Origin: an uncultured SAR116 cluster alpha proteobacterium
GTDB lineage: Bacteria > Pseudomonadota > Alphaproteobacteria > Puniceispirillales > Marisalimonadaceae
DNA length: 64,000 bases
Assembly: GCA_902593735.1 (NCBI GenBank)
Contig: CACJJL010000001.1
Location: 1 to 64,000 of the forward strand
Reading direction: 5' to 3'
Every line of letters starts with the position of its first letter. The stretch's first letter is position 1. The notes beneath the pieces are model-generated. The model was given only the letters and a program-made list of their open reading frames with translations, searched no databases and was not told the origin of the DNA. Of the stretch, positions 47,198 through 62,716 are shown in pieces. A program made the position numbers and the translations under genes.

Positions 47198-48332
47198 TTT
47201 ATCCTCAGGTTTAAGATTCAATGCAGGTGCAACAGCACTTGCTTTATCTCAAAGTGACATGAAATTTGAAATCTTTTCTTCTACCCCTAAAAATAAATGG
47301 CCTGCTATTTCAAGAGAAGAATTATCTTTTAGACCTTTACCTTTTAAAATACTTGAATATTTAAACTTGATAAAAAGAAACAGATTTTTACGTGAAATTG
47401 ATGCAATAATTTTTGATAATATAGTTACTTTATTAAAAAGTGATTGTGATATTTTTCATGGCTGGGCCACATTTTCTTTAAATACTGGAAAAAAATATAA
47501 AAAAAAGGGGATACCATTTATCCTTGACAGAGCATGTCCACATATAAGTTTTCAGGAAAATTTACTTATCGAGGAAGCAGAATTAACAAAGTCAAATTAC
47601 ATTCCAAATAGTAAAATGTTTCTAGAAAGGTGTTTAGAAGAGTATGAATTAGCAGATAAAATTATCGTTCCATCAAATTATTCATATAAAAGTTTTATAA
47701 ATAAAGGTTTTAAAAAAAATAAAATACATAAATTAAAACTTAACATCAATTATATTCCTCAGAAGAAAAGAAAATTTATTAAAAATAATAATAAATTTGT
47801 TTTAGGAACAATAGGAGGTAATCCTTTAAGAAAAGGGATAAAATATTTAATCGATGCATGGCAATCACTAAAATTACACAATGCTACTCTATTGCTAAAA
47901 ACAAGTGAGTTTGAATTAAAAAAAAACAAAGACTTATTTAAAAAAGTTAAGAACGATCAAACTATTATGATCATGCCATATTTTAAAAATATTGAAGACT
48001 TTTATCTCAAATGTGATTTATTTTGTTTGCCCTCTGTAGATGATGGTTTTGGTTTAGCAGCTTTAGAAGCAATGGCATCTGGAGTTCCAGTAATTGTAAC
48101 TGAAAATGTTGGTGCAAGCGAAATGGTAGAAAACAATGTAAATGGTTTTGTTGGTAAAATAAGAGACGTTAATTTTTTATCAGAAAAAATTCTAGCTTTG
48201 TATCTTGATAAAAGTTTATTAAAATATTTTTCAGAGAACTCCTATTCATCTTACAATAATTATCTTAATTCAAAAGATAACTATAATAGCAACATTCTTA
48301 AAATTTATAGATCATTGTTTTACAAAAATTGA
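47184..48332 (+). CDS. Glycosyltransferase family 4 protein
   Basis: A GT-B enzyme of about 382 residues. The N-terminal domain opens INLSSGLRFNAGATALALS. FILDRACPHISFQENLL and DKIIVPSNYSYKSF lie in the acceptor side. The donor domain has LGTIGGNPLRKGIKYLIDAW and a GT4-like signature LPSVDDGFGLAALEAMASG. The ATG at 47184 is preferred to the TTG at 47169. It overlaps the end of the GT2 gene by 14 bases and the convergent CapK-like gene by 21 bases. Confidence 0.86.
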   Translation: MIKINLSSGLRFNAGATALALSQSDMKFEIFSSTPKNKWPAISREELSFRPLPFKILEYLNLIKRNRFLREIDAIIFDNIVTLLKSDCDIFHGWATFSLNTGKKYKKKGIPFILDRACPHISFQENLLIEEAELTKSNYIPNSKMFLERCLEEYELADKIIVPSNYSYKSFINKGFKKNKIHKLKLNINYIPQKKRKFIKNNNKFVLGTIGGNPLRKGIKYLIDAWQSLKLHNATLLLKTSEFELKKNKDLFKKVKNDQTIMIMPYFKNIEDFYLKCDLFCLPSVDDGFGLAALEAMASGVPVIVTENVGASEMVENNVNGFVGKIRDVNFLSEKILALYLDKSLLKYFSENSYSSYNNYLNSKDNYNSNILKIYRSLFYKN

Positions 48333-49628
48333 ATGTTTGCCTGCCAATGTTTTGGAGGAGGCTTGCTCTATGATAAAAAGTTTTTTTCTATCTGGAATAC
48401 CAAAATTTTGACTAATTTTTTTGAAACATCTTTCATAAATTTTTGAAATATTTACCTTATTTCTCGCATTTAATATTATGTAAACGGTGTCTTTTTTAAT
48501 TAGATACTGAACAGAGTAAATTTCAGGGATATATTTTAAAAAATGATCAAAAAAAATTGTACTTATTGTTGCTGTTTTCCCGTTAGTTAGCCTTATTGGT
48601 ATATTGTTTCTCGATTTACCTAAAATTTCTTTTATTTTTAAAATAGATCCATTAATAGTAAGTTTGGTTTTTACTCTATCTTCAGTGTCGTAATTGATTA
48701 AAGGGAAGATGCGTTTTGTTAGAGTTGTTAAATAAAGATTTGAGGTTTCATTTTCAGTTAAAATAAAGTTATTCCAAAAGATTATAATATTTTGGGTTTG
48801 GTTTTTTGAATATCCTATTACACCTGTTTCAGCCATCCCGTATTCATTAATGACATTATGTGCCATGGTTTTTTTAATTAATTTAATATCTTTTATATAA
48901 GCTGTCTCAGAAGTAAGAATGATATTATTCAATTTTCCAAATCTAAATTTTAACCCATTTTCACTCATAAACTTTGCTAATTTAAATATATTTCCTGAAT
49001 AAGAAATAATTGTTGGGGGATATGCCTTATTAATTTCATCAAAAAAATATCTAAGGTTTGTCTCTGATAGATCATACGAGCTTAATCTCTTAGTATTTAT
49101 AAGATAATCCTTTATCTTTCTAACAAACTTTTCTGAAATTCCTTTAAATCCACTAGCAAATAAGTGAGAATGACCCCACAACATTAAAATTTCAGACAAT
49201 GGTTTAATATTCCACCAATATCTTCCTGTGTAAGCAACTATGTATGCATTTAAGGATTCTATATTATCAGTTGGAAATAATGTTGTTTCACCACTCGTAC
49301 CTCCTGTAAATGTTGTTCTATGATTTGAACTATTAGCAACTATTAAATCATAATAATTATTGATAATTTTTTTATTTAATGGAGGAAAATTTTTTAAATC
49401 ATTAATATTAGTTATAATTTGAGGTAATTTATGCTTTTTTTTCCACATCTTATAAAAAGGGTTTGTTTCTTGTATATACTGCCAATAACAATTAAATCTA
49501 TTTATTTGGTTTAATACAATTATATCTGATTTTATAGTTTTGTTATAAAATCTTACAGATTTTTCAATTTCTTGTATCTTCTTTTTAAAAATAGTTTTTT
49601 TGAGTAAGAAAGTAATGTTGTTAGTCAT
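48312..49628 (-). CDS. CapK-like adenylate-forming protein (phenylacetate-CoA ligase relative)
   Basis: A protein of about 438 residues of the adenylate-forming superfamily, close to CapK/PaaK-like proteins of capsule clusters. The phosphate-binding loop is TTFTGGTSGETTLFP. SYSGNIFKLAKFM, ILTSETAYIKD and NEYGMAETGVIGYS carry the A4/A5-like motifs, and INYDTEDRVK the A7 region. The C-terminal subdomain is reduced. These proteins may activate a carboxylate (an organic or amino acid) for glycan decoration, but no substrate is proven. The ATG at 49628 overlaps the stop of the radical SAM gene in TAATG, so the two are translationally coupled. Confidence 0.8.
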   Translation of the reverse strand: MTNNITFLLKKTIFKKKIQEIEKSVRFYNKTIKSDIIVLNQINRFNCYWQYIQETNPFYKMWKKKHKLPQIITNINDLKNFPPLNKKIINNYYDLIVANSSNHRTTFTGGTSGETTLFPTDNIESLNAYIVAYTGRYWWNIKPLSEILMLWGHSHLFASGFKGISEKFVRKIKDYLINTKRLSSYDLSETNLRYFFDEINKAYPPTIISYSGNIFKLAKFMSENGLKFRFGKLNNIILTSETAYIKDIKLIKKTMAHNVINEYGMAETGVIGYSKNQTQNIIIFWNNFILTENETSNLYLTTLTKRIFPLINYDTEDRVKTKLTINGSILKIKEILGKSRNNIPIRLTNGKTATISTIFFDHFLKYIPEIYSVQYLIKKDTVYIILNARNKVNISKIYERCFKKISQNFGIPDRKKLFIIEQASSKTLAGKHSIFVKQ

Positions 49629-49630
49629 TA
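49626..49630 (-). promoter_or_regulatory. TAATG stop-start overlap coupling radical SAM and CapK-like genes
   Basis: On the minus strand the radical SAM stop TAA and the CapK-like ATG share one base. GGGA sits inside the end of the radical SAM gene 5 bases before that ATG and can serve as its ribosome site. This decides the CapK-like start and predicts re-initiation by the same ribosome. Confidence 0.65.
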
Positions 49631-50656
49631 CTTTTCCCATACTTTATCATAAAATATAATTTTTGAATTTGGTTTAATATCTTTCCAAGCTAAATCTATC
49701 TGTTTAATTAAATTATCTTTTTGACTTTTGCTTGCTACCATGAACTGTGAGCAATCGTTGCATGTTTTGACATCTCCAGTTAGGAATTCTTTTTGTATAC
49801 TTTTACGTTTATGATTTTTTAAAACATTATCAAAACCATTTTCTATGTTACCTAACGGAAGTTCGGCATGAAAATCCAAACAACATAAATGTACTTTTCC
49901 GTCAAACCCAATTACTATTTCATCAAATGGATCATAACATGTTTTGACCAACTTTTCTTCTAGTTGGTAAATTTCGTCTTTTAATTGTAGTGGAAATTTT
50001 GAAATAAAAGTATTATTTTCTTTGTTGAAATCATTGTAAGGTTGCATAAAATCAATCCTTATGGAGTCTACATTTCCCCACAATTTAAAAAATTTTTTAA
50101 GATTAGTAAGCTTAGTTACTGGCAAATGAATTTCTTTAAAGATTGATTTTAAATTTGGATCATTAATTAAAAATTTATAGTTTTCTCTTGCTCTTTCATA
50201 TTTTAAGGGAAACCTATACTTCTCGTATGAAATTTTATCCCATCCTTCAATTGAAAGTTGAAGTTTATTAACTTTTGCTAAATCATTTAGACGATGTTGT
50301 ACTACTGATAGGTTGGTAGAAACTTGCACTTCTAAATTTTTAGACTTTATAATATCTATAAATTTTGAAAACTTGGGATGTAAAAGTGGTTCAGATGTAA
50401 TGTATAATTTTATAGTTTTTATTCCAAATTTAGTTGCTTCTGTAATTATTGAAGAAAATTTTTCAAGAGACATTTTTCCTGATAAACGAGCATCAGGCAT
50501 AGCTATTCTCGGGCAGAAAGGGCATTTTGCATTACAAAATGCTGTTATGTCTATTCTAAGAGTTTTTGGATAGCCTGCTTTTTTTAAAAAATATTTTGTC
50601 CTAAGGACATTAAGGTCACCAAGATGTCTTTTTATAATTTTTTTTAAAAAAGTCAT
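49628..50656 (-). CDS. Radical SAM/SPASM-domain protein
   Basis: A 342-residue radical SAM enzyme. The 4Fe-4S cluster motif is ITAFCNAKCPFC (Cx3Cx2C) near residues 41-48. The SAM-binding region has IKLYITSEPLLHPKF, an altered GGEP-like segment (TSEP). The C-terminal part has HLCCLDFHAELPLGNI and KTCNDCSQF, a SPASM-type cysteine set for a second cluster. It is cytosolic and anaerobic-type chemistry is expected. The substrate is unknown. Coupling to the CapK-like enzyme suggests the two modify or attach the same group on the surface glycan. Confidence 0.85.
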   Translation of the reverse strand: MTFLKKIIKRHLGDLNVLRTKYFLKKAGYPKTLRIDITAFCNAKCPFCPRIAMPDARLSGKMSLEKFSSIITEATKFGIKTIKLYITSEPLLHPKFSKFIDIIKSKNLEVQVSTNLSVVQHRLNDLAKVNKLQLSIEGWDKISYEKYRFPLKYERARENYKFLINDPNLKSIFKEIHLPVTKLTNLKKFFKLWGNVDSIRIDFMQPYNDFNKENNTFISKFPLQLKDEIYQLEEKLVKTCYDPFDEIVIGFDGKVHLCCLDFHAELPLGNIENGFDNVLKNHKRKSIQKEFLTGDVKTCNDCSQFMVASKSQKDNLIKQIDLAWKDIKPNSKIIFYDKVWEK

Positions 50657-52828: not shown

Positions 52829-53920
52829 TTATTCACTAAAAAATTGTTTATATCCAACATAATTTCTTATTTGTTTTTTGCCTAGTTCATAATGAGGTAA
52901 TGCATAAACAGGTCTATACATATCACATCCATTGCAAGGACCATTAAATTTGTCTTTTTCTTGATCATCAATCCATTTTTTGTATTTAGGATTTTTAATT
53001 GATATAATATCTTTTAATGAATTTTGTTTTAAGTTTCCAACTACCATTTCTCGCATTGCATCCCTGCACGCACACAAAATAACATCACAATTTGAAAGTA
53101 TCATGTAATTAAACAATCTCGCGCAAGGGCCAGATTTGTAACCTTTCTTGTCATCTTTAAGAATAATGGGCAATCCCTTAAGATCTGTATCGGATACATA
53201 ACCACCCCAATTAGTATAATGTCTATGAAAATCAACACTAACATTATCAGTTTTTTTCATGGATTTTATTAGATTAATCATAGATGTGTTCGAGCTATTA
53301 AGGTTAAAATCCATATAAGATCTTATACCAAACTGAACTTTAAAGTTAAAAAAAATAATATTATTTTTTAAACATAATAAATTTTTATATACTTTATTGT
53401 ATAGTTTTGTTTGCGTTATTTTATTAAAACTATCTTCGTCGTGCCCATAAATGCTAATTTTAAGATTCTTTAATTTTTTTAGTTTTTTTAGCAATGAAAT
53501 ATTTTTTTCATCTAAAAGTGATATATTAGTGGTAAATGAATAATTTTTAATACCCTCGTGTTTTTCTAAAAAATTTAATTTAGCATGTATACCTCGTCTA
53601 TCGGTAAAAATATCACCTGTCAATGGCGTCAATGTAATTGTATCACCGCCATTATTTGCTATTTCATTTACAGATAGTTTAAAATCATTTAAAGGCATTA
53701 TTTGTCTCATTTTCTTAGTTGTATGTTGATAAGCACAAAAAACACAATTGAAATTGCATATACTAGATGTTTCAATAGAATAACCAGATGGATTTTCAAT
53801 CATTGGTCTTTTTAAAAGTCTAAAAAATGGAACTGTAAGTCGATAATAAAAATTTTTCGACTTAACTCTTACCTTTGATCTGATTAAGCTATAAATGTTT
53901 TTCAAATAGACCTCTAACAT
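52829..53920 (-). CDS. Radical SAM/SPASM-domain protein
   Basis: A 363-residue radical SAM protein. The cluster motif is ETSSICNFNCVFCAYQ (Cx3Cx2C) near residues 53-60. LTPLTGDIFTDRRG replaces the usual GGEP region. C-terminal cysteines in GPCARLFNYM, CDVILCACRDAM and PCNGCDMYRP form a SPASM-like domain, probably holding extra clusters. It lies downstream of the Wzy-like and GH84 genes on the same strand, 63 bases after the Wzy stop. The target is unknown, and it is not closely similar to the other two radical SAM proteins of the window. Confidence 0.82.
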   Translation of the reverse strand: MLEVYLKNIYSLIRSKVRVKSKNFYYRLTVPFFRLLKRPMIENPSGYSIETSSICNFNCVFCAYQHTTKKMRQIMPLNDFKLSVNEIANNGGDTITLTPLTGDIFTDRRGIHAKLNFLEKHEGIKNYSFTTNISLLDEKNISLLKKLKKLKNLKISIYGHDEDSFNKITQTKLYNKVYKNLLCLKNNIIFFNFKVQFGIRSYMDFNLNSSNTSMINLIKSMKKTDNVSVDFHRHYTNWGGYVSDTDLKGLPIILKDDKKGYKSGPCARLFNYMILSNCDVILCACRDAMREMVVGNLKQNSLKDIISIKNPKYKKWIDDQEKDKFNGPCNGCDMYRPVYALPHYELGKKQIRNYVGYKQFFSE

Positions 53921-58458: not shown

Positions 58459-59226
58459 ATGAAAATAAATAATTTTAATAATTTTGAAAACACAGAAACA
58501 TTACCAATGAACAATAAGTACATTGACAAAATGTCTACTGAGAAAGCTACTGTTACAATGATAATGAATAGTGAAAAAGTAATTAAAAGTTTGATGGACT
58601 CTAATAAATATATAAGCATTGCAGTTGATAAAATTTATAAAATTTTAAAATCATCAAATTCTGGAAGACTTATTTATGCTGGATCTGGAACATCTGGTCG
58701 AATTGGGGTTTTAGATGCGGTAGAATTATTACCAACTTTTGGTTGGCCTTCTAATAGAATAGACTTTGTCATTGCTGGTGGCATTAATTCTTTAATAAAA
58801 TCTGTGGAAGGTGCAGAAGATATCTTCGAAGATGGATTTAATGAAATTATGAAAAAGAATTGTAATCAAAACGATGTCTTGCTTAGCCTTTCTGCAAGTG
58901 GTCAGTCTCAATTTACAGTTGGCACAGTTAAGGCTGCAAAAAAAACAAAAACCTTTTCAGTTGGCATTTCCAATAATACCAATTCACAATTAGCTGATAG
59001 TTGTGACTTATTTATACCTATTCTAACTGGAGCAGAAATTTTAGCTGGCTCTACTAGGTTAAATGCTGGCACTTCACAAAAAATTTGTCTAAACATTATT
59101 TCCACATTAGTAATGTCAAAATTAGGCAATGTGCAGAATGGCTTGATGGTAAATATGATACCATCAAACAAAAAGTTGAAAAAAAGAAAAAAGTTAATAA
59201 ATAATCAACTCAAGGATTTGGATTGA
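58459..59226 (+). CDS. murQ: N-acetylmuramic acid 6-phosphate etherase, C-terminally short
   Basis: A 255-residue SIS-fold etherase that splits MurNAc-6-phosphate into GlcNAc-6-phosphate and lactate. The phosphosugar site is IYAGSGTSGRIGVLDAVELL, with the catalytic Glu in the VEL segment and the second Glu in SVEGAEDIFEDG. SASGQSQFT, STRLNAGTSQKI and NGLMVNMIPSNKKL match the family. MurQ proteins usually reach about 300 residues; this one ends about 15 residues after SNKKL, so roughly 50 C-terminal residues are missing. No MurQ-like continuation is seen in the other frames. The SIS active site is complete, so activity remains likely. Confidence 0.93.
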   Translation: MKINNFNNFENTETLPMNNKYIDKMSTEKATVTMIMNSEKVIKSLMDSNKYISIAVDKIYKILKSSNSGRLIYAGSGTSGRIGVLDAVELLPTFGWPSNRIDFVIAGGINSLIKSVEGAEDIFEDGFNEIMKKNCNQNDVLLSLSASGQSQFTVGTVKAAKKTKTFSVGISNNTNSQLADSCDLFIPILTGAEILAGSTRLNAGTSQKICLNIISTLVMSKLGNVQNGLMVNMIPSNKKLKKRKKLINNQLKDLD

Positions 59227-59445: not shown

Positions 59446-61533
59446 ATGGCAATTAAAGCTCATAAATCAGTAGTTAATCCTAAAGTTTCAGTAGTTATAC
59501 TCGTCCATAACAGAACTGATGTGTTTAAACGTTGCTTAGACAGCCTGCTGTCTCAAAATTATAACAAAGTAGAAATAATTGTTGTAGACAATAACTCCAT
59601 TAATCGCACAAAAGATCTTCTCTCCAACTACTCTGATAATTTGACGGTCATAACGTTGGATCAAGATCATGGCGCATGCATGCCAAGAAATCTTGCTGCA
59701 AACAAAGCTTCAGGCGAGTATATTCTCTTTCTAGATTCAGATGCAGTTTTAGTTGAAAAAGACACCATTTCGAATGCTGTTAAAGTGTTAAATAAACATT
59801 CAAATTTAGCTGCTATTGGTGGAGTAGCTTTTTCTGATGAAAAACTTAAAATCCTTCAACACGCACAATTAAAATTTAAATCCCCATTCGAAATTGATGA
59901 GGATAGCAAGATGAGTATTCCTAAAACTCTTTGTCTTGATATTGATTATATACAAACGGATTTCATGATGATTAGGCAGAAGATTTTTCGTGAAGTTGGA
60001 GGGTTCGATCACTTTTTTAGATATTATCCAGAGGATGTTGATATCTCTTTTCGAGTTTTACAAATGGGATATGAAATAGCTTTGTCACCAAAAATAAAAT
60101 ATTGGCATCAATACCGCCCACGAGCGGTGGCTATTGATCATGGTTATTTTCTAAAAGTCTGTTATATGTATATGAAAAACTTATCACTTGTACAAGTTTT
60201 TCATTACTATTTTAATTTTTTGAAAAAAGGTTTTCTAAAAGCTTTAGGTGCCAATAATAAAGTTAAGAAAATTTACTATTTAACCTGGTATTTAGTAAGT
60301 CCACTATTCCTAATTTGGTTAATAGCATTATGGCCACTTGTTAAAATGAGGAAACTAATTTCTTTTACAAAACAAGTTGAAACAGAGTCATTTTTTTCTA
60401 AAATAAGTGATAGACTAATTAAGTTACCTTTATTTTTAGAGTTAGGATGCTTTAATAAATTAAGTGCATTTTTATTTTTTCTTAAAAAAAACCGGCAAAA
60501 GCGAGGTTTATATGTATTTATTACTAATAGGTGTATGTACACTTGCCAACACTGTTTTTTAGGGGATGATGTTACAAAAAAACGGCCATTGCTGAGCGTA
60601 GAAGAAATCAAAAAAGCTTACTTGTCCTATGCTTTTAACATAGGTGGAGTTTCATTAACAGGTGGAGAGCCATTTATGCGTCCTGATATTGTAGAGCTTT
60701 GTAATGTATTCCAAGAAGATCGACCTGTAAAAAGTATAGCTATTAACACAAATGGATGGAATCCAGATTATATTGAAAATAAGGTTCGCGAAATACTATC
60801 CAACGCACCACGTAGTCAATCAATTAAGATGACTATATCTTTAGATGGTTTGGAGGAAACACATGATTTCATAAGAGAAAGAAAAGGGGCCTTTAAAAAT
60901 GCTGTTACATCCATTCGCAAGTTAAAAGCACTATCGATAAATGATAAAAGATTAACTATTAATGCGCAGGTTACGTTTGTTCAGTTTAACAAAAAAGAGT
61001 TCTATAAATTGTATAATTTCGTTAAGAACGATCTAGGAGTAAAATTAAGCTTTAATTGGTATCGTGATGGTAGGGCTTTTGGGGTTGATAAGAACCTTAT
61101 TTTTTCTCCAGATAATAGGGAAGATCCTATTCATGCTGATGTAAAGCTACCAAACATGTCTGAATGCGAAGAATTATTTGAATTTTTTGAAGAAGAGCGT
61201 TGGTACGATCGTCGATTTCGTCTCATTAACAAATATACCTTAGATATTTTAAAAAAAGGGCGTGCACCATTTTCTTGTGCTGCACCAAAACTTAACATGG
61301 TGATGTTTGCAGACGGGGGAGTAAGTTTTTGTGAACTCGTAAAGCCTTTTGCAAATTTGAGAGATTTTGATTTTAATCTTAAGGAAGTAGTTGAGTCTCA
61401 AATTATGAAACAGATGACAAATTCAGTTAAAAACTGCTCTTGTATTCACCCCTGTGTATTACCGGTTTCTATGCAGGAAAAGCATTTTGCTGATTTGAAA
61501 CTTGATAGACTAAGAAGTTTTCAGTCAACTTAA
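59446..61533 (+). CDS. Fusion of GT2 glycosyltransferase and radical SAM/SPASM domain
   Basis: A 695-residue protein made of two enzymes. Residues about 12-250 are a GT2 domain: VSVVILVHNRTDVFKRCLDS, LFLDSDAVLV with Asp97-x-Asp99, and YYPEDVDISFR with Glu196-Asp197. Hydrophobic helices near 270-295 follow. From about 355 a radical SAM domain begins, VFITNRCMYTCQHCFLG (Cys363, 367, 370), with SLTGGEPFMRPDIVELC and AINTNGWNP. The C-terminus has SCAAPKLNMVMFADGGVSFCE and NCSCIHPC, cysteines for auxiliary clusters. It may both build and modify a glycan at the membrane; the substrate is unknown. Arginine is often CGN here, unlike neighbours (mostly AGA), suggesting transfer. Confidence 0.88.
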   Translation: MAIKAHKSVVNPKVSVVILVHNRTDVFKRCLDSLLSQNYNKVEIIVVDNNSINRTKDLLSNYSDNLTVITLDQDHGACMPRNLAANKASGEYILFLDSDAVLVEKDTISNAVKVLNKHSNLAAIGGVAFSDEKLKILQHAQLKFKSPFEIDEDSKMSIPKTLCLDIDYIQTDFMMIRQKIFREVGGFDHFFRYYPEDVDISFRVLQMGYEIALSPKIKYWHQYRPRAVAIDHGYFLKVCYMYMKNLSLVQVFHYYFNFLKKGFLKALGANNKVKKIYYLTWYLVSPLFLIWLIALWPLVKMRKLISFTKQVETESFFSKISDRLIKLPLFLELGCFNKLSAFLFFLKKNRQKRGLYVFITNRCMYTCQHCFLGDDVTKKRPLLSVEEIKKAYLSYAFNIGGVSLTGGEPFMRPDIVELCNVFQEDRPVKSIAINTNGWNPDYIENKVREILSNAPRSQSIKMTISLDGLEETHDFIRERKGAFKNAVTSIRKLKALSINDKRLTINAQVTFVQFNKKEFYKLYNFVKNDLGVKLSFNWYRDGRAFGVDKNLIFSPDNREDPIHADVKLPNMSECEELFEFFEEERWYDRRFRLINKYTLDILKKGRAPFSCAAPKLNMVMFADGGVSFCELVKPFANLRDFDFNLKEVVESQIMKQMTNSVKNCSCIHPCVLPVSMQEKHFADLKLDRLRSFQST

Positions 61534-61534
61534 T

Positions 61535-62716
61535 ATGTCTGTCATAAAACTAGCAATTTATGGAATGCACCCTATTCCTTATCAAGCCCCCATATTTAAG
61601 AAAGCCGCACAACATAAACAATTAGATGTTACAGTATTATATGCTGAGTCTTTAGGAGTAGAGTTAAACTTCATTCCTGGGTTCAATACTACATTAAAAT
61701 GGGACGTACCTTTACTAGAAGGTTACAAATATCTCTTTTTTAAAAATTACTCTAAGAAAAGAATAACGGGATTTTTTTCTCGAGTTAATCCTGGCATATT
61801 TTGGTATGTTTTAAGAAACGATTTTCAAGTTTTGATGATCCATGGACATTTCACTTTAAGTGCTTGGCTTGCATTTTTTGCTGGGAAAATCTCTGGTAAG
61901 AAAATTATTATTCGTGGCGAAGCTATACCCAAAAAGGATAATATCAGTTGGAAAAAAGCTGTAGGTCGTTTTTTTTTACGTTTATATCTCAATTACGCAG
62001 ACGCAGTTATGTACTCATGTTCTCGTAACAAGTCCTATTGGCTTTCTTTGAAAGTGCCAGAAGAAAAAATGTTTTTTATAAAGTGTGCTGTCGATAATAT
62101 TCAACTCCAAAGAGATAGACTCAAATTATTACCAGAACGTGAAAAATTTCGTCACACGCTTGGTATTGGAGACAGTGATTTTGTGATTTTATTTTGTTCG
62201 CGATTTACTAATCGTAAAAGACCTTTGGACTTGATAGATGCTGTTGCATCTATAGGGATGCGTAATATTGTGCTTTTGCTTGTTGGTGACGGACCAGAGC
62301 GAAAAAAAATGGAAATTGCCTCGAAGAAAAAAAACATCAGAACTGTATTTACTGGGTTTGTCAACCAAAGTCAGTTACCTAAATACTACAGTATAGCAAA
62401 TTCCTATGCAATACTATCTGAGTATGATGCTTCACCAAAAACTTTAAATGAAGCTCTAAACTTTGGTCTGCCAATAATTTGTTCTAATATGGTTGGTACC
62501 TCAGATGATTTAGTTAGGAATAACTATAATGGTTTCATAGTAGAAGTTGGTGATATCCAAGGTATCAGCCAGCATTTGAAAAATTTGAGCAAATCACATC
62601 AGTTATCACTAAAAATGGGAAAGCGCTCAGAGCTTTTGGTTAGAGAGTGGAATTTTGATCAAAATGCAAAAGCAATTTTCAAAGCATGTAACTATGTCCT
62701 TTTAAAATCATATTGA
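61535..62716 (+). CDS. Glycosyltransferase family 4 protein
   Basis: A 393-residue GT-B enzyme opening IKLAIYGMHPIPYQAPIFK. The donor domain has VILFCSRFTNRKRPLDLIDAV, LLVGDGPERKKMEI and the signature SEYDASPKTLNEALNFGLP, a variant of the EX7E element found in exopolysaccharide GT4 enzymes. KIIIRGEAIPKKDN lies in the acceptor side. It starts 1 base after the fusion gene's stop and shares its CGN-rich arginine use, so the two form one cassette. It probably adds the sugar before or after the fusion protein's step. Confidence 0.88.
   Translation: MSVIKLAIYGMHPIPYQAPIFKKAAQHKQLDVTVLYAESLGVELNFIPGFNTTLKWDVPLLEGYKYLFFKNYSKKRITGFFSRVNPGIFWYVLRNDFQVLMIHGHFTLSAWLAFFAGKISGKKIIIRGEAIPKKDNISWKKAVGRFFLRLYLNYADAVMYSCSRNKSYWLSLKVPEEKMFFIKCAVDNIQLQRDRLKLLPEREKFRHTLGIGDSDFVILFCSRFTNRKRPLDLIDAVASIGMRNIVLLLVGDGPERKKMEIASKKKNIRTVFTGFVNQSQLPKYYSIANSYAILSEYDASPKTLNEALNFGLPIICSNMVGTSDDLVRNNYNGFIVEVGDIQGISQHLKNLSKSHQLSLKMGKRSELLVREWNFDQNAKAIFKACNYVLLKSY

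Follow-up and report, generated by a model that had tools for sequence, protein, structure and literature searches.

A candidate bifunctional enzyme of surface-glycan assembly: a GT2 glycosyltransferase-radical SAM fusion in a SAR116 cluster alphaproteobacterium

The window analyzed here, a 64,000-nucleotide stretch of DNA from an uncultured SAR116 cluster alphaproteobacterium, encodes a single protein in which a GT2 glycosyltransferase is followed by a radical SAM enzyme. We propose, with a probability of about 0.55, that this protein is a bifunctional inner-membrane enzyme of surface-glycan assembly, in which sugar transfer by the GT2 half precedes a radical change of the glycoside. Established here are the domain architecture, the intact motifs and twitch-type cysteines, the repeated fusion, and the operonic pairing with GT2 genes. 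The features of the locus are:

59446..61533, + strand: GT2-radical SAM fusion gene, 695 aa (ORF, Pfam, composition)
59488..59997, + strand: GT2 domain, residues 15-184, DSD at 97-99 (Pfam PF00535; GT-A fold, residues 10-229)
60187..60366, + strand: hydrophobic, predicted helical membrane segment, residues ~248-307 (hydropathy; AlphaFold2 helices)
60517..61020, + strand: radical SAM core, residues 358-525, with C363/C367/C370 and GGEP at 406-409 (Pfam PF04055; fold match over residues 350-676)
61276..61455, + strand: putative twitch-type auxiliary cluster region, C611-x12-G-x4-C629-x34-C664-x-C666-x3-C670 (sequence pattern)
61535..62716, + strand: GT4 glycosyltransferase gene (Pfam PF00534), starting 1 bp after the stop of the fusion gene

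The fusion gene is an unbroken reading frame of 695 codons with an ATG start, directly preceded by a strong ribosome-binding site (AGGAGG). Third-position GC content (GC3) is alike in the GT half (0.245) and the radical half (0.255), and the gene lies inside a 207-kb contig, away from its edges. The initial annotation, which had claimed a single frame joining the two domains, is confirmed by ORF reading and Pfam, and the residues it named (D97-S-D99, E196-D197, C363/C367/C370, GGEP and extra C-terminal cysteines) are all correct. Glycos_transf_2 (PF00535) matches residues 15-184 with an E-value of 7e-27 over profile positions 1-167 of 168 (94.8 bits; cut-off 23.3). The D97-S-D99 motif, the catalytic acidic pair E196-D197 and the modeled GT-A fold place this half in GT2. 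The membrane helices described earlier stand as a hydrophobic, predicted helical segment, with long AlphaFold2 helices at residues 248-268 and 272-307, but hydropathy gives only one clear hydrophobic stretch (residues ~276-305), so it is uncertain how many times the chain crosses the membrane.

The radical half matches Radical_SAM (PF04055) on residues 358-525 (E-value 8e-20, profile positions 2-165 of 166, 72.2 bits against a cut-off of 29.5). It belongs to the radical SAM superfamily by its CX3CX2C and GGEP motifs and a fold match to a partial TIM barrel. Five extra cysteines lie toward the C-terminus (C611, C629, C664, C666 and C670). The arrangement C611-x12-G624-x4-C629 followed by C664-x-C666-x3-C670 agrees with the twitch pattern (CX9-15GX4C, a gap and further cysteines), and on this cysteine pattern the radical half is assigned to the twitch subclass. 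Its family carries the signature CX3CX2C, CX12GX4C and CXCX3C. Mutated cluster cysteines in homologues had been named as a possible objection, and CX3CX2C is intact in 90 of 91 family members. The SPASM pattern (CX9-15GX4C-gap-CX2CX5CX3C-gap-C, with seven cysteines) was rejected because CXCX3C stands in place of CX2CX5CX3C, and the SPASM model PF13186 does not match the window protein. Among the matches listed, neither half scores as high as the cut-off of any NCBIfam model, and the radical family is therefore unnamed in NCBIfam; the best 25 of 73 NCBIfam matches of the window protein do not include TIGR04466 (BlsE).

The full-chain structure was predicted with AlphaFold2, as the initial annotation had proposed, and both folds were matched. 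The alignment consisted of fusions and radical SAM proteins only, since alignments mixing GT2 and radical SAM fragments misplaced the GT2 rows. The mean pLDDT was 76.6, with values mostly above 90 in the radical core, and the pTM of 0.55 makes the relative placement of the two active sites uncertain. The GT half matches the GT-A enzymes 6p61 (Z 21.3) and PcManGT (Z 20.9). For the radical half, BlsE (7vob; Z 23.7 over 283 residues, rmsd 3.0) ranks first among the fold matches, followed by SkfB (Z 23.2), SuiB (Z 22.9) and the sugar enzyme DesII (Z 19.2); BtrN is absent among the fold matches listed. The fold leaves the substrate unfixed because the peptide-modifying SkfB and SuiB score nearly the same Z as BlsE.

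In the proposed mechanism, the GT2 half would use an activated donor to add a sugar to a lipid-linked acceptor on the cytoplasmic side of the inner membrane. The radical half would then cleave SAM at the C363/C367/C370 cluster and abstract hydrogen from the glycoside just made, and the substrate electron would pass to an auxiliary cluster with C611, C629 and two or three of C664/C666/C670 as ligands. The most likely net outcome would be a two-electron oxidation (dehydrogenation or oxidative decarboxylation), the alternative being epimerization, for which a fifth auxiliary cysteine could instead serve as hydrogen donor. The hydrophobic linker and the polysaccharide loci make it reasonable to infer a common membrane-bound saccharide substrate for both halves. 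That the radical step is specifically an oxidation has clearly less than even odds, and is suggested by analogy with the decarboxylation of a glucuronoside by BlsE (PMC3715490) and the alcohol oxidation carried out by BtrN (PMC9012708). Of the reactions proposed earlier, dehydrogenation and epimerization would suit a twitch-type enzyme with a putative auxiliary cluster, but methylthiolation is unsupported, as there is no methylthiotransferase domain among the Pfam and NCBIfam matches listed.

A search of other genomes for the same domain order identified six further fusions of 683-741 aa, all with GT2 preceding radical SAM and all confirmed by Pfam (6/6), in Alphaproteobacteria, Magnetococcales, Gammaproteobacteria and Nitrospinota:

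G158, a genome of the same class: 683 aa (BLASTP 2e-24 over 486 columns)
Magnetococcales G380: 741 aa
Nitrospinaceae AH-679-O07: 727 aa
Rhodospirillaceae ARS16: 715 aa
Rhodospirillales PL24a: 706 aa
Gammaproteobacterium CSSed165cm_587: 690 aa

A first scan of genome contigs with the full-length fusion protein gave no match. An apparent 728-aa fusion (L129) was rejected because GC-rich DNA had produced a spurious reading frame at its N-terminus, and the long N-termini of L055 and L131 have the same origin. The Magnetococcales fusion adjoins a Bac_transf initiating sugar transferase. No published description of a GT2-radical SAM fusion was found in the open-access literature.

The two activities are also encoded as neighboring genes. 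The second copy in G158 is unfused, with radical SAM and GT2 genes overlapping by a few bases, and the same overlap occurs in the IMG/VR contig L094. This contig may be host rather than viral and holds at least five radical SAM genes (L094:227-8062), including the GT2-paired one. A GT2 is fused or co-directional within 200 bp in 35 of 80 loci (4 fused and 31 adjacent), although the loci were collected by radical SAM sequence in a scan seeded with paired members and the proportion is no population estimate. The loci span Pseudomonadota (including Pelagibacteraceae), Nitrospirota, Omnitrophota, Elusimicrobiota, Chloroflexota, Myxococcota, Planctomycetota and one archaeon. Some radical family members have no adjacent GT2. 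The family comprises a clade whose C-terminal ends are mostly CXCTxEC and a sister clade in which they are mostly CXCPxAN; the GT2 link occurs in 42 of 66 rows of the former and 1 of 25 of the latter (Fisher 1.6e-7, or 3e-6 without hand-picked rows, both uncorrected for kinship). This contrast is less open to seeding bias than the 35/80 count. In a Fermentibacteraceae MAG, a sister-clade relative is fused to an LPG_synthase_TM membrane domain (L174:4930-7032, +), and thus the same kind of radical enzyme has been joined to another membrane protein. When scored with a profile of radical-SAM-adjacent GT2s, the GT2 halves exceed other GT2s of their own neighborhoods, although the window GT2 half does so only modestly (154 vs 138 bits).

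The fused state requires five changes on the tree, and a single clade of all seven fusions is rejected (p-AU 2e-6); the fusion therefore arose several times. A grouping of the window fusion with those of G158, L145 and L160 is not rejected (p 0.21), and the long branch of the window protein leaves its own position unsure. Fusion that recurs with one domain order is a classical sign of functional coupling. The idea, put forward when the gene was first annotated, that sugar transfer is coupled to a radical reaction is well supported by this repeated fusion and by the frequent adjacency of the unfused genes. The variable order of the 31 unfused pairs (GT2 upstream in 17, downstream in 14) and the members without a GT2 neighbor count against the coupled-glycan model.

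The fusion locus is a polysaccharide cluster. The GT4 gene at 61535-62716 is a probable operon partner of the fusion, and it is not conserved beside the other fusions. Upstream (58459-59226, +) lies a gene for a MurQ-like N-acetylmuramic acid 6-phosphate etherase, apparently short by ~45 C-terminal residues (model coverage stops at 242-244 of 291-300). Genes for AnmK, a PIG-L deacetylase and an N-acetylglucosaminidase adjoin it, and insertion of the fusion gene may have occurred next to this etherase gene. Radical SAM enzymes are abundant in the cluster. At 48312-50656 (-), a radical SAM/SPASM gene overlaps the gene for a 442-aa protein, which judging from its sequence may be a CapK/phenylacetate-CoA-ligase-like enzyme, and another radical SAM/SPASM gene lies at 52829-53920 (-). 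About 5.3 kb downstream of the stop of the fusion gene, a 503-aa protein (L033:11790-13301, +) matches B12-binding radical SAM proteins encoded near other family members, including the gene directly after the Nitrospinaceae fusion. The relatives searched within the same genus and family lack the fusion. Across 385 genomes of the class, only 5 have a match to the radical SAM family that reaches an E-value of 1e-35. The fusion gene is thus accessory in the SAR116 genome and was probably acquired.

The radical half could instead modify a lipid carrier, or the lipid part of a glycolipid, that the GT2 half glycosylates. HpnH and the tetraether synthase Tes are lipid-modifying radical enzymes. The hydrophobic segment between the halves, the presence of Tes among the sequence matches of the family, a Parabacteroides member followed by a GT28-type glycosyltransferase gene and the LPG_synthase_TM fusion in L174 would agree with a lipid substrate. 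We nevertheless regard it as unlikely, since the matches are only at the superfamily level (39-46 bits for Tes, whose cut-off is 450) and the top fold match, BlsE, is a glycoside enzyme. Less likely again, the halves may share a pathway and differ in substrate, the fusion merely fixing their ratio or location. Glycosyltransferases and radical SAM enzymes do each occur several times in the clusters, and the order of unfused pairs varies, but the repeated fusion in one order and the overlapping unfused genes suggest a tighter coupling.

We consider it improbable that the protein acts as in mycofactocin biosynthesis, where a small ribosomal peptide would be modified by the radical half and the product glycosylated by the GT2 half. 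Mycofactocin loci encode a radical SAM enzyme and a GT2 together (PMC3023750), MftF is among the best NCBIfam matches of the GT2 halves and partners (85.6 bits in the window, 127.8 in L113), and the peptide enzymes SkfB and SuiB are near in sequence or fold. However, the window protein scores far under the 280-bit cut-off of the MftF model (TIGR03965), only random frames of 21-32 codons and no precursor-like ORF lie beside the fusion gene, Pfam found no RRE domain in the window protein, and the loci are polysaccharide clusters.

A join of two genes by assembly or sequencing error has a negligible probability: the source draft consists of 65 contigs and close relatives of the same genus and family lack the fusion, but the frame is continuous, the halves match in composition, the site is internal to the contig, six homologous fusions come from independent and unrelated assemblies, and the isolate name AH-679-O07 suggests a single-cell genome. 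Misassembly and chance are excluded by these homologous fusions.

As a rule, cells make unusual sugars at the nucleotide-sugar stage. If the proposed model of a transferase coupled to a radical enzyme is true, a residue would be edited after its transfer, on the growing glycan. The occurrence of fused and unfused pairs in many phyla, including Pelagibacterales, extends a single odd gene to a family for which a clear prediction can be tested. We tentatively suggest, at somewhat less than even odds, that a widespread, undescribed and repeatedly fused two-enzyme module adds a sugar to a lipid-linked glycan and then uses radical chemistry to rewrite that sugar in place, so that bacteria and archaea would gain surface sugars beyond those of nucleotide-sugar pathways.

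Several known systems resemble parts of the fusion. In mycofactocin, the radical SAM enzyme MftC and the GT2 MftF are likewise paired and encoded near each other, but they are separate proteins acting on a peptide and MftC is a SPASM enzyme, whereas the window protein misses the MftF cut-off and has no precursor peptide beside its gene. SkfB (6efn) is the best PDB sequence match of the radical family, with the CX12GX4C and CXC motifs aligned; its auxiliary cluster ligands lie in CX33CXC (PMC6231123), close to the C-x34-CXC of the window protein. Unlike the fusion, SkfB modifies peptides, has an N-terminal RRE and is not joined to a GT2. The twitch region of BtrN is a weak sequence match to the radical family, and BtrN differs in oxidizing an aminocyclitol, in its much smaller size and in having no joined GT2. 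BlsE is a weak sequence match (E-value 5e-5) to the radical half but its top fold match, acts on a sugar already joined to an aglycone, and has CXC-type C-terminal cysteines, whose CXCX2C motif has been suggested as a second cluster site (PMC3715490) and differs in spacing from the CXCX3C of the window protein. On the other hand, BlsE is a soluble, single-domain enzyme of antibiotic synthesis that acts on a nucleoside-like glycoside and lacks a GT2 half. No family test places the window protein within the BlsE family; by analogy, the fusion protein would work most like a BlsE joined to a membrane GT2.
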